A DNA stretch of 37,267 nucleotides from an uncultured Alphaproteobacteria bacterium (GTDB taxonomy: Bacteria; Pseudomonadota; Alphaproteobacteria; HIMB59; GCA-002718135): NCBI GenBank assembly GCA_902541215.1, contig CACBPV010000012.1, positions 1 through 37,267 on the forward strand, given 5' to 3'. The position numbers and the translations under genes are program-made. Below the pieces are notes generated by a model, which saw only the letters and a program-made list of their open reading frames with translations, was not told the DNA's origin and ran no database searches. Positions 21,333 through 25,630 of the stretch are shown one piece after another (position 1 is the first letter of the stretch; each line of letters opens with the position of its first letter).

Positions 21333-22300
21333 TACCTAAAGATTTATCTGTCGATAATATTAATAAAATTTATAAAAGAATTAGTCCATTTATTAATAAA
21401 ACACCTTTTTTAAAGTGCCCTAATGATATTGATAAATATTTTTCTACTAATTTATTTTTTAAATGTGAATTTTTACAAAAATCTGGTTCATTTAAGGCAA
21501 GAGGTGCGCTTAATAATATAATTTCTCAAGATCAGAATAAATTTAATAAAGGAATTACAGCAGTGAGTGCTGGAAATCATGCAATTGCTGCCTCATTTGT
21601 AGCTAATCAATTTAAATTGAAAAATAAAATTTTCTTATATGAAAGTGCTAATAAATATAGAGTTCAAACTTGTAAAAATTATGGTGCTAACCTTATCTTT
21701 ACTAATCCAAAACAAGCTTTTCGTGATGCTGAAAATGCGAAAAATGAAGGTTACTATTTTATTCATCCTTTTGACGGCCCATTGACTTTACAAGGTAGTG
21801 CTACATTGGGATTAGAAATTGTAGAATATTTAAAATCAATAAATGATAAAATTGACAATTTATTTATTTCAGTTGGAGGAGGTGGGTTAATAAGTGGTGT
21901 TTCTTCCTATGTAAAACAATTTTTTCCTAAGATTAAAATTATTGGCGTTGAGCCTGAAAATGCTAATGGATTAAATCAAAGTCTTGAAGCTAATAAACCA
22001 TTAAATAATGTTAAAATTAATAGTATTGCTGATAGCCTTTCAGCGCCATTACACATGCAATATTCATTTGATGTAGCAAAAGAAGTAATTGATGAAATGG
22101 TAACTGTTTCTGATGATCAAATGAAAGAATTTATGGTATTTTGTTATAAAAAATTTAAGTTTTTTCTTGAACCTGCCTGTGTAGCTGGACTTGCTGCCTT
22201 AAAAAATAAAATCAATAATGAGCTTATTGGTCAAAATACAATGGTAATATTGTGTGGCTCAAATATTGATAAAAAAACTTGGATAAAGTTAACTAATTAA
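21329..22300 (+). CDS. Threonine dehydratase-like PLP enzyme (fold type II)
   Basis: A 323-residue pyridoxal-phosphate enzyme of the threonine/serine dehydratase family. The cofactor lysine is Lys56 in KSGSFKARGAL, the phosphate loop is SVGGGGLISGV, and AGNHAIAASFVA is also family-typical. The short length without a C-terminal ACT domain fits a catabolic threonine ammonia-lyase or a serine racemase/dehydratase rather than biosynthetic IlvA. Substrate choice cannot be settled from sequence. It starts with TTG overlapping the previous stop (TTGA). The 3' end overlaps the convergent anmK by 4 bases. Confidence 0.88.
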   Translation: MIPKDLSVDNINKIYKRISPFINKTPFLKCPNDIDKYFSTNLFFKCEFLQKSGSFKARGALNNIISQDQNKFNKGITAVSAGNHAIAASFVANQFKLKNKIFLYESANKYRVQTCKNYGANLIFTNPKQAFRDAENAKNEGYYFIHPFDGPLTLQGSATLGLEIVEYLKSINDKIDNLFISVGGGGLISGVSSYVKQFFPKIKIIGVEPENANGLNQSLEANKPLNNVKINSIADSLSAPLHMQYSFDVAKEVIDEMVTVSDDQMKEFMVFCYKKFKFFLEPACVAGLAALKNKINNELIGQNTMVILCGSNIDKKTWIKLTN

Positions 22301-23403
22301 TCTGGAAAATATAAAGTACCACCACTTAAATTTTTTTTCACACCTGTAGTATTTATATTACTTATTGTCAAATTTTTAAAAGATCTCATACCAATATATG
22401 CAAACATTTGAGATTCTACTAAATCACCATTTATTTTATATTTATCTATAAGTTCAATTTTTTTATTTAGTTTATTAAATAATATTTCTTTGAGTAATTT
22501 ATTTTTTCTTCCACCTCCAGTAAGTAATATTTTTTCAATCCTAAATTTCTTATTTTTTAATAATTCTTTAAATCCTATATAAGTCATGAAGTTAGCAGTC
22601 ATCAATGCATCATATTTGTCCAATTTAATAAGCTTATTATAGTATTTTCTAAAATAATTTCGATCTAATGATTTTGGGAAACTTTTTTTAAAGAACTTAT
22701 CCCTTTTAAATTTATCTATTAATTTACTATCAATTTTACCTTTTCTTGCATTATTTCCATTTTTATCAAATTTTTTTTTAAAAAAATATTTACTTAGATC
22801 ATCTGTTAAACAATTTGCTGGTCCAATATCAGATGATATTAAAGTTTTTGAAACTAAAGTTGAAAAATTTGCTATACCACCAAGGTTTATTATAACTACT
22901 TTTTCTTTAAATTTTTCTATTAAAAACTTATGATAATAAGAACCAATTGGCGCTCCCTGACCTCCATTTTTAATATCATTATCTCTTAAATTACTTATAG
23001 TTTTTATTTTAATTTTTTTTGCAATTTTTTTTCCATTTCCTAATTGTATAGATATTTTATTTGAAGGGTCATGATAAACAGTCTGCCCACTAATAGATAT
23101 TAAATCAATATTTTTTTTATTAATTTTTTTTTGTTTTAAAAACAAAATTATTTTTTTTTCTAAAATATCTGTAACAAAATCATCTTTTTTTAAAAAATAT
23201 TCTTTAATTTTATTATTATTTTTTGGTTTATTTATTATTAGTTTATTTATTATATTTTGATAATTTTTATTAAATTTATACGATTTTTCACATTTAATTT
23301 TTACAAAGTTAGTCCCATTTGTATTAATCAAACTGATATCAACTCCATCCATTGACGTACCTGTCATAACTCCTAAGACATTAAATTTCGAATTTTTATT
23401 CAT
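22297..23403 (-). CDS. anmK: Anhydro-N-acetylmuramic acid kinase
   Basis: Cleaves and phosphorylates 1,6-anhydro-MurNAc to MurNAc-6-phosphate during peptidoglycan recycling. It has 368 residues, full length. Signatures are GVMTGTSMDGVDISLI at the N terminus (phosphate 1 loop), SISGQTVYHDP, INLGGIANFS and ILLTGGGRKNKLL. It is unusually lysine- and asparagine-rich, in keeping with the base composition. The upstream side faces the small RNA region. NagZ, another recycling enzyme, is absent from its common place between argS and scpA. Confidence 0.94.
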   Translation of the reverse strand: MNKNSKFNVLGVMTGTSMDGVDISLINTNGTNFVKIKCEKSYKFNKNYQNIINKLIINKPKNNNKIKEYFLKKDDFVTDILEKKIILFLKQKKINKKNIDLISISGQTVYHDPSNKISIQLGNGKKIAKKIKIKTISNLRDNDIKNGGQGAPIGSYYHKFLIEKFKEKVVIINLGGIANFSTLVSKTLISSDIGPANCLTDDLSKYFFKKKFDKNGNNARKGKIDSKLIDKFKRDKFFKKSFPKSLDRNYFRKYYNKLIKLDKYDALMTANFMTYIGFKELLKNKKFRIEKILLTGGGRKNKLLKEILFNKLNKKIELIDKYKINGDLVESQMFAYIGMRSFKNLTISNINTTGVKKNLSGGTLYFPD

Positions 23404-23488: not shown

Positions 23489-23517
23489 TTGATAGATAAA
23501 TAACAAATAGATATTCT
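23489..23517 (+). promoter_or_regulatory. Putative sigma70 promoter of the small RNA
   Basis: TTGATA (23489-23494), a 17-base spacer, then TATTCT (23512-23517). The predicted start near 23524 falls at the foot of the first RNA hairpin (23525), an agreement that supports both calls. Confidence 0.55.
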
Positions 23518-23523
23518 AATTTT

Positions 23524-23639
23524 AATTATTACACGCAAAGGTAATAATCAATTTAATAAAAGGAAACGATTATTAAATTGTATCGGGAGGAAATGCACGA
23601 TACACAAAAGGGACCTAGCTTGCTGGGTCCTTTTTTTTT
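23524..23639 (+). ncRNA. Unassigned small RNA with four stem-loops and intrinsic terminator
   Basis: About 116 bases with its own promoter and terminator and no convincing reading frame. Hairpin 1 pairs ATTATTAC (23525-23532) with GTAATAAT (23541-23548), loop ACGCAAAG. Hairpin 2 pairs an 11-base arm CAATTTAATAA (23549-23559) with TTATTAAATTG (23570-23580), loop AAGGAAACGA. Hairpin 3 pairs TATCG (23581-23585) with CGATA (23598-23602), loop GGAGGAAATGCA; it gains two more pairs if it takes 23579-23580 from hairpin 2. Hairpin 4 is the terminator. Purine-rich AGGA/GGAGG motifs sit in two loops. It does not look like tmRNA, RNase P RNA, SRP RNA, 6S RNA or a tRNA. The following gene starts 46 bases after the T-run, so a leader role is possible but less likely. 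Confidence 0.65.
23607..23639 (+). terminator. Strong intrinsic terminator of the small RNA
   Basis: GGACCTAG (23611-23618) pairs with CTGGGTCC (23623-23630) through a CTTG tetraloop. One G-T pair is in the stem and flanking A/T pairs extend it outward. Nine T follow at 23631-23639. It is the only textbook Rho-independent terminator I found in the window. Confidence 0.85.
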
Positions 23640-23685
23640 GTTTTATAGACAAATTTGATAAATAAAGTAACAACATCATTTATTA

Positions 23686-24408
23686 ATGGTTAAATTTTCT
23701 TTATTTTTGTTTGTCTTAATTTTTTGTTTTAAATCATTTTCTAACGAAGTTACAATTTTAAATGAAACTATAGGTAATGGTTTAGAGGTTAAAAATCACT
23801 CTAAATTATCTGTTCATTACATAGGTAGACTCGAGGATAATACTGTTTTTGATAGTTCATATGATAGGGGACAATTTTTTGATTTTCAAATAGGCGTAAG
23901 AAAAGTAATCCTAGGTTGGGAAACTGGGTTACTTGGTATGAGAGAGGGTGGAAAAAGAACAATATTTATTCCTTATCAATTGGCTTATGGAGAAAGTGGT
24001 GCAGGAAATTTAATTCCTCCAAAATCAAATCTTATTTTTGATATTGAAGTAATAAAAGTAATTCCACCTGGGTATAAGGAAATAGATGGTTATCAATTAA
24101 AACTAGCGATGACTGATGATTTTAAAATAATAGATATTAGAAATGAAGATCAAATAAATAATAAAAATAAAATACCAGGAGCAATACAGATAACTGCATT
24201 TGATAAAAATGGAAATTTTTTCCCAGATTTTTTTGAAAAGTATAAAGAAAATGTTCAAATAGGAGAGAAAGTTATTTTTATAAGCCAAAAGGGAGACGTA
24301 TCTTCAATTTTAGCTAATGGATTTGTTGAGCAGCTAAATCAAGTAAATATTTATCACTTAAAGGATGGTGTATTAGGTTTAGAAAAAATAAATTTTGATT
24401 TTGAATAA
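23686..24408 (+). CDS. Secreted FKBP-type prolyl isomerase fused to a rhodanese-like domain
   Basis: A 240-residue two-domain protein. Residues 1-19 are a Sec signal peptide (KFSLFLFVLIFCFKSFS), so it is probably periplasmic. Residues 30-127 are an FKBP peptidyl-prolyl isomerase domain: LSVHYIGRLEDNTVFDSSYD, VILGWETGLLGMREGGKR, IPYQLAYGESG, then a final FDIEVIKV strand. Residues 135-235 resemble a rhodanese fold (FKIIDIRNEDQ, KIPGAIQI, VIFISQKGDVSSILANGF, IYHLKDGVLGL). The position of the catalytic rhodanese Cys is Ser200, so no sulfurtransferase activity is expected and a binding role is more likely. Partner proteins are unknown. Confidence 0.87.
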   Translation: MVKFSLFLFVLIFCFKSFSNEVTILNETIGNGLEVKNHSKLSVHYIGRLEDNTVFDSSYDRGQFFDFQIGVRKVILGWETGLLGMREGGKRTIFIPYQLAYGESGAGNLIPPKSNLIFDIEVIKVIPPGYKEIDGYQLKLAMTDDFKIIDIRNEDQINNKNKIPGAIQITAFDKNGNFFPDFFEKYKENVQIGEKVIFISQKGDVSSILANGFVEQLNQVNIYHLKDGVLGLEKINFDFE

Positions 24409-24409
24409 A

Positions 24410-25213
24410 TTAAAAATCTATTTTTTTATTATTTTCAGCTGCATAATTAATAATAAATTGCCATGCTGATCTACCTGTTCTATTTCCTCTTTCTAAACTC
24501 CATTTAATTGCTTCTTTTTCAGTTTTTACATTAAAAGGAAGTTTAAATTTTTCACAATACTTTAAAATTATATTAACAAAATCATTTTGAGAAATATTAT
24601 GAAAGCCAATCCATAAACCAAAACGATCACTTAAACTTATTTTTTCTTCAACACTTTCATCTGTATGAATAGCAGAAGATCTTTCATTTTCTATCATATC
24701 TCTTGGCATTAAATGTCTTCTATTAGAAGTTACATAAAGAACAATATTTTTAGGCTGATTTTGTATACTTCCATCTAAAGTAGATTTAATTATTTTGTAA
24801 TCATTATCTATATTTTCAAATGATAAATCATCAATAAAAATTATAAAATTATAATTCTTTAAATTTGCGTATTTTTCATAAATAATTTCAATATCAAAAA
24901 TATTATTTTTATTTAATTGTATTAATTTTAAGTTCTTATTTTTTTTGTTTATCTCAAAAAAAACTGATTTAATTAATGAGCTTTTACCATTACCCCTTGA
25001 TCCCCATAATAAGGCATTATTTGTAAAATTTCCTTCAGCAAAATTTTTTGTATTATTATAAATAGTTTTTTTTTGTCTTTCTATTCCGACTAAAAGATCA
25101 AGATCTAAACATCTAAAATTAGAGATTATTTTAAGGTTTTTTATTTTACTATCCCAAATAAATGCCTTTCCTCTTGAGAGTGTAAGATTTGATAAAAAAT
25201 TGCTTAAAAACAT
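24410..25213 (-). CDS. DUF815-family AAA+ ATPase
   Basis: A 267-residue P-loop ATPase. Walker A is GSRGNGKSS at 71-79 and Walker B is FIIFIDDLSFE with Asp128-Asp129. A sensor-like stretch YVTSNRRHLMPRDM follows, then the family segment SLSDRFGLWIGFH. The N-terminal 30 residues with an FIW motif precede GIERQKKTIYNN. In alphaproteobacteria this gene commonly sits divergently beside yajC-secD-secF, as here. The cellular role is not established and the neighbourhood does not prove a link to secretion. Confidence 0.87.
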   Translation of the reverse strand: MFLSNFLSNLTLSRGKAFIWDSKIKNLKIISNFRCLDLDLLVGIERQKKTIYNNTKNFAEGNFTNNALLWGSRGNGKSSLIKSVFFEINKKNKNLKLIQLNKNNIFDIEIIYEKYANLKNYNFIIFIDDLSFENIDNDYKIIKSTLDGSIQNQPKNIVLYVTSNRRHLMPRDMIENERSSAIHTDESVEEKISLSDRFGLWIGFHNISQNDFVNIILKYCEKFKLPFNVKTEKEAIKWSLERGNRTGRSAWQFIINYAAENNKKIDF

Positions 25214-25248
25214 TATAAATACTTTATTTGATTTTTCTTATTACACAG

Positions 25249-25254
25249 TATAAT
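25249..25254 (+). promoter_or_regulatory. Putative -10 element for yajC-secD-secF
   Basis: A perfect TATAAT with a start site predicted near 25261, 28 bases before the yajC ATG. A TTGATT at 25228-25233 is a possible but closely spaced (15-base) -35. The overlapping bases read TATACT on the minus strand, so the divergent ATPase gene may use the same spot. Confidence 0.4.
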
Positions 25255-25288
25255 AAATCTCTCAAATTAAATCATCATAGGTACTATT

Positions 25289-25630
25289 ATGGAAGCATTT
25301 GGAACATTTTTACCACTTATATTAATATTTGTAGTTTTTTATTTTTTGTTAATTAGACCACAGCAAAGAAAAGTTAAACAACATAAAGAAATGCTATCCA
25401 ATCTCAAAAGAGGTGATAAAATCGTAACTTCAGGTGGAATTATCGGAACTATTAATAAGGTAGCTGATAATAGGGAATTAACCTTAGAAGTTGCTGAAAA
25501 TGTTGAAATAAAAATTGCATCAGGAATGGTTGCGGATTTATATTCAATGCCAGAAGTTCAAAAAAAAGAACCACTAAAAGAAGAGAATAAAAGTAAATCT
25601 GGCTTCTCTTTATTTTCTAGAAAAAAATAA
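25289..25630 (+). CDS. yajC: Preprotein translocase subunit YajC
   Basis: A 113-residue inner-membrane accessory protein of the SecDF-YajC complex. One N-terminal helix (about 5-22, LPLILIFVVFYFLLIRPQQR) runs into the diagnostic RPQQRKVKQHKEMLSNL. KRGDKIVTSGGIIGTI and a compact cytoplasmic domain follow, then a lysine-rich tail. First gene of yajC-secD-secF, with 12 bases before secD. Confidence 0.95.
   Translation: MEAFGTFLPLILIFVVFYFLLIRPQQRKVKQHKEMLSNLKRGDKIVTSGGIIGTINKVADNRELTLEVAENVEIKIASGMVADLYSMPEVQKKEPLKEENKSKSGFSLFSRKK

Follow-up and report, generated by a model that had tools for sequence, protein, structure and literature searches.

IMES-4 (Rfam RF02037) is an already known RNA family that is catalogued from seawater DNA. 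It was reportedly first described from marine metagenomes via comparative genomics by Weinberg and colleagues in 2009, and to the best of our knowledge it has no known function; no mention of IMES-4, RF02037 or IMES RNAs was found in the literature searched. Other described RNAs to which it can be compared include 6S RNA, whose defining feature is a long helix that mimics an open promoter by means of a central bubble, the protein-titrating RNAs of the CsrB/RsmZ type, and the alphaproteobacterial anti-Shine-Dalgarno-loop small RNAs (sRNAs) of the cuckoo/alpha-r14 type, whose CCUCC loops bind Shine-Dalgarno (SD) sites. Four less-supported candidate RNAs of Pelagibacter were also considered and set aside, as their contexts and shapes differ from those of IMES-4 (PMC2704228). 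IMES-4 was formerly known only as a structure, to which an owner, a promoter and a terminator are now attached. Because the family is already catalogued, the claim to discovery is an ordinary one; new here are the owner lineage, the full four-hairpin anatomy, the promoter positions and the seeming absence of the usual sRNA helper proteins.

The window, i.e., the whole 37,267-nt stretch of DNA analyzed, contains a full-length match to RF02037 (Table 1), which lies above the Rfam 15 gathering score of 48 bits and has an E-value of 3e-16 with the window as search scope. An earlier note on this DNA had described a free-standing small RNA gene with no obvious known family. The latter part is wrong because RF02037 matches over all 80 positions of its model, and the Rfam search that the note had named as a check hence returns a known family. 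Its view that the gene does not encode a housekeeping RNA is right; the 6S RNA model (RF00013) has no match in the window or at the locus. The window RNA shares with IMES-4 three consecutive covarying hairpins (helices 1-3), the loops CACGCAAAGG, GGAAAC and GGGAGGAAAUG, which are invariant in the Rfam alignment and in the sequences of relatives, and a marine source, the named matches with real stems being marine single-cell genomes or metagenome-assembled genomes (the AG- series single-cell genomes, SAG-MED31, MarineAlpha5 bins and an ETNP MAG). The Rfam model, however, does not extend to the terminator hairpin, although the relatives conserve this hairpin too. From its sequence, positions 23525-23639 of the forward strand are almost certainly the complete gene for IMES-4, a structured RNA of about 115 nt that belongs to the AEGEAN-169/HIMB59 lineage.

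Table 1. Positions in the window of the IMES-4 gene elements and of the two neighboring genes.
Feature	Position	Strand	Description
anmK (anhydro-N-acetylmuramic acid kinase)	22297..23403	-	Divergent upstream neighbor; Pfam PF03702, 218.5 bits
Promoter	23489..23517	+	-35 TTGATA at 23489-23494, 17-nt spacer, -10 TATTCT at 23512-23517
Rfam RF02037 IMES-4 match	23525..23604	+	101.7 bits, model 1-80/80
Hairpin 1	23525..23548	+	8-bp stem, loop ACGCAAAG at 23533-23540; Rfam alignment
Hairpin 2	23550..23579	+	~10-bp A-U stem; GGAAAC apex at 23562-23567, a G(GAAA)C tetraloop
Hairpin 3	23580..23603	+	6-bp stem, 12-nt loop GGAGGAAAUGCA at 23586-23597, core GGGAGGAAAUG
Hairpin 4/intrinsic terminator	23606..23639	+	CUAGCUUGCUGG apex, CUUG tetraloop, nine T; outside the Rfam model
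FKBP-type isomerase with rhodanese domain	23686..24408	+	Downstream neighbor; Pfam PF00254, PF00581

For the whole unit, the folding energy is -34.7 kcal/mol (z = -6.6), a value that none of 200 shuffles matched. Three perfect-stem hairpins followed by a fourth with nine T had been described for this locus; this holds, except that the stem of hairpin 2 is imperfect, with a 2x2 mismatch beneath the G(GAAA)C cap. The terminator stem consists of eight GC-rich pairs plus A-U pairs and is followed by the nine T at 23631-23639. It had been said to have no comparable rival, and it is indeed the only terminator found in a 2-kb scan, in which 0.5 are expected; the 12-mer at its apex is unique in the window's genome. 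Judged from the sequences of the relatives, the terminator hairpin is the conserved fourth element of the IMES-4 RNA.

The hairpins are also borne out by the covariance analysis that had been named as a check. In a set of 38 distinct sequences that span six genera, standard pairs fill 94.4% of the pair cells, compared to 32-44% with the partners slid, and double changes are found in 24 of the 36 pairs, counts that related sequences inflate, although the changes are nonetheless spread across genera. None of 500 shuffles reaches any of the covariation values. Helix 1 is paired in 98% of the cells with three double-change pairs, helix 2 in 89% with double changes in 11 of 13 pairs and helix 3 in 99.6% with four double-change pairs, while hairpin 4 covaries in six of nine pairs. 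An unguided consensus fold yields the same four hairpins. Mean conservation is 0.99 for the loop of hairpin 1, 1.00 for the apex of hairpin 2, 0.97 for the loop of hairpin 3 and 0.92 for that of hairpin 4, compared to 0.78-0.92 for the stems. The GGAAAC apex is invariant in all 38 distinct sequences on a stem whose sequence varies yet stays paired, and all members retain the GGGAGGAAAUG core, including those with a rewritten stem of hairpin 3 (L041, L034 and L035): the rewritten stems GUAAG/CUUAC and AAAUC/GAUUU leave it unchanged. In L041, for instance, stem 3 reads GUAAG/CUUAC instead of GUAUC/GAUAC and the terminator stem GGCUU/AAGCC instead of GACC/GGUC, with GGGAGGAAAUG and CUAGCUUGCUGG intact. 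The most divergent member is L031 (G109, 1501-1582), which has CUCUUCAAAAG in place of ACGCAAAG in loop 1; therefore, AAAGG alone is universal in this loop. The same conservation bears on whether the locus is a small protein gene, in which GGAGG-AA-AUG in hairpin 3 would start a short open reading frame. About 21 codons can be read from that AUG in the window, but the SD-AUG spacing is just 2 nt, the frame stops after two codons in L034 and L035 (AUG UCU UGA) and differs elsewhere, and the hairpins account for all the conservation, which leaves this explanation with a next to negligible probability.

As a pattern, the promoter is no better than chance in AT-rich DNA (13 found vs. 14.3 expected). 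Its bases are conserved at a fixed distance from hairpin 1, with TTG at -36 to -34, A at -12 and T at -8; in a set of 17 upstream sequences less than 75% alike, G at -34 is found in 11, against a background of 6% (p = 5e-10). The promoter that had been proposed, with a start beside the hairpin chain, is present, and 17 diverged relatives keep its positions. With the upstream gene pointing away from it in most members, the RNA needs a promoter of its own. The start is predicted at about 23524/23525, so that a sigma-70-type promoter would begin the RNA at hairpin 1, and transcription would stop in the T run.

The genes that surround IMES-4 vary. In most close relatives the order is a gene for a PLP enzyme, divergent anmK, IMES-4, a cytidine-deaminase-like gene, a glycine riboswitch and gcvT-gcvH-gcvP, while other genera and certain species have a same-strand EamA transporter gene between anmK and IMES-4, or a gene for a solute-binding protein on the opposite strand downstream. 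The downstream gene is consequently a deaminase gene, gcvT, the FKBP gene or, in L037-L039, the opposite-strand solute-binding protein gene; among the genomes examined, FKBP occupies this place in the window and G063 only. G021 and G092 each carry two IMES-4 copies 218 bp apart, each copy with its own terminator. Because the neighbors change while the RNA persists, IMES-4 most likely acts in trans. The changing neighbors on both sides, the mostly divergent upstream gene, the covariation, and the conserved promoter positions and terminator together uphold the earlier description of a free-standing small RNA gene.

A leader or attenuator acting in cis on the downstream gene, which in relatives would serve the deaminase gene and the glycine-cleavage operon, would fit the position of the unit, which in most relatives precedes gcvTHP and has a same-strand gene about 50 nt downstream, as well as that of the tandem copies, 217 bp before gcvT in G021 and G092. 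Such a role is nevertheless highly improbable, because the flanking genes differ and the tandem copies carry their own terminators. No same-strand gene or operon is constantly found downstream, given FKBP in the window and G063 and the opposite-strand gene in L037-L039; the gcv operon carries a glycine riboswitch of its own; and the consensus fold gives four hairpins only, with no conserved alternative antiterminator pairing. IMES-4 shares the neighborhood upstream of gcvT in relatives with the glycine riboswitch (RF00504), but the riboswitch has its own separate match and IMES-4 occurs without a riboswitch adjacent to it. Regulation of gcvT in cis by the tandem copies was likewise rejected, as the glycine riboswitch at that site is distinct from IMES-4.

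Glycine riboswitch aptamers before gcvT and downstream of IMES-4 were observed in L152 (1383-1547), L033, L034, L036, L041, L059, L061, L063, L078, L136 and L168, with two matches back to back in L152. In the window, a synteny breakpoint follows directly after the terminator (23640-25630), where FKBP-rhodanese, a DUF815 ATPase and yajC replace the deaminase-glycine riboswitch-gcvTHP block. The FKBP junction is common to the window and G063 (L019/L118), with FKBP and DUF815 in both and then yajC in the window.

The AEGEAN-169/HIMB59 group is an abundant lineage of the surface ocean; in a Red Sea data set, AEGEAN-169 made up 4.55% of 16S reads (PMC5069720). IMES-4, which is single-copy in the window's genome, was found in 78 of the 162 genomes of the order HIMB59, every one of them from the window's family. 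When 385 genomes sampled across the class were searched, only the window's own genus had it. Among genomes at least 90% complete, it is present in 10 of 10 of the window's family and in 0 of 10 of the sister family, the split between the two families being read from genome labels. The owner of IMES-4 is the AEGEAN-169 group (GTDB genus AG-337-I02, order HIMB59). AG-337-I02 corresponds to the AEGEAN-169 marine group of the order HIMB59, formerly SAR11 clade V (PMC8692485). Candidate homologues in the sister family (f2, by inference that of HIMB59 itself) were rejected, as the best two, at 24.8 and 24.6 bits, are ordinary gene-end terminators. Such a gene-end terminator in L179 and L180 of the sister family (G136 C1 and G155 C1) has a CUAG...CUGG apex like that of the IMES-4 terminator, without preceding IMES-4 hairpins. 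All seven pattern matches in IMG/VR, which would have been viral copies, and the pattern matches in unrelated bacteria (Clostridia, Bacteroidetes and others) lack the stems and were dismissed as chance.

The HIMB59 lineage is apparently without the common small-RNA helpers. Hfq (PF17209) and CsrA (PF02599) were each found in 0 of the 162 genomes of the order and ProQ in 0 of 92 genomes, with positive controls throughout (E. coli, B. subtilis and T. maritima for CsrA), although the models used may miss very divergent proteins. The persistence of IMES-4 without recognizable Hfq, CsrA or ProQ raises a testable question about the role of a universally kept sRNA in a streamlined genome. The host protein of an Hfq-dependent sRNA is thus not found, and this bears on a conventional trans-encoded base-pairing sRNA, which would pair with several mRNAs independently of Hfq through a short seed in loop 1 or loop 3. 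A free-standing unit with a terminator and invariant single-stranded loops is what many sRNAs look like, but neither Hfq nor ProQ was found, and in 59 genomes loops 1 and 3 have no recurrent perfect 10-nt target on the sense strand. The perfect complement of loop 1, CCTTTGCGTG, occurs there almost solely within IMES-4 itself, and that of loop 3, CATTTCCTCC, shows outside IMES-4 no clear excess over the reversed control; 38 of the 40 sites of the latter whose gene context was read are antisense to coding. We consider this explanation possible but rather unlikely. The search covered perfect 10-nt matches, with short (6-8 nt) or imperfect mRNA pairing beyond its reach. As long recurrent antisense targets are not found, a single conserved partner is therefore favored, while short seeds may still be in use.

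A protein-titrating RNA of the CsrB/RsmZ type is very doubtful. IMES-4 resembles such RNAs in being a series of hairpins with GGA-containing loops, GGA lying in or close to the loop in both hairpin 2 and hairpin 3, but it has fewer such loops, with the GGA of hairpin 2 partly in the closing G-C pair, it shows no sequence relation to them, and its order lacks the host CsrA/RsmA; the explanation survives only with a protein other than CsrA. A functional stand-in for 6S RNA, i.e., a decoy for RNA polymerase, is scarcely credible. RF00013 recognizes no 6S RNA in 59 genomes with positive controls, which would leave a place for a stand-in, but a divergent 6S RNA may escape the model, and IMES-4 has four separate short hairpins with fixed loops instead of a long helix with a central single-stranded, open-promoter-like bubble.

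The loops are invariant on covarying stems, and therefore something presumably reads the loops. We propose that the stems may merely present the loops ACGCAAAG, G-GAAA-C and GGGAGGAAAUG, and that one conserved and abundant partner, an RNA-binding protein or the ribosome, would read them, rather than their pairing with many mRNAs. On the sequence comparisons, IMES-4 is probably a trans-acting RNA whose invariant purine-rich loops are recognized by a single conserved partner. The most concrete form of this proposal starts from GGAGG, which is present in loop 3 of every member and is complementary to the CCUCC of the 16S anti-SD. The same genus has the 16S 3' end GGATCACCTCCTT, which was confirmed as SSU rRNA in one relative; E. 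coli shares this anti-SD. The duplex predicted with it is -11.2 kcal/mol for loop 3, -5.8 for hairpin 2 and -3.0 for hairpin 1, compared to -16.5 for a perfect SD. Loop 3 GGAGG, supported more weakly by the AAAGG(A) of hairpins 1 and 2, would contact the 16S anti-SD, and IMES-4 might occupy or sequester 30S subunits or an SD-recognizing factor and hence tune translation globally. That IMES-4 is such an SD mimic binding the 30S anti-SD is an unlikely suggestion: the 6-bp stem that closes the 12-nt loop restricts pairing within this loop, which counts against it, and the GGAGG 5-mer could be conserved for protein binding instead. Like the cuckoo/alpha-r14 type RNAs, IMES-4 is small and free-standing with invariant loops beside an intrinsic terminator, whereas its GGAGG is of the opposite polarity to their CCUCC. 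If true, the SD-mimic reading would mean that translation is tuned by an RNA in a streamlined lineage seemingly without Hfq, CsrA, ProQ and a recognizable 6S RNA.

Among the tandem copies (L032 of G021, 1501-1840; L033 of G092, 1501-1840), hairpins 2-4 are identical between the two copies of G021, and the second copy of G092 is of the common type, a pattern that looks like gene conversion. The divergent tandem copies have the terminator loop GCAA in place of CUUG.
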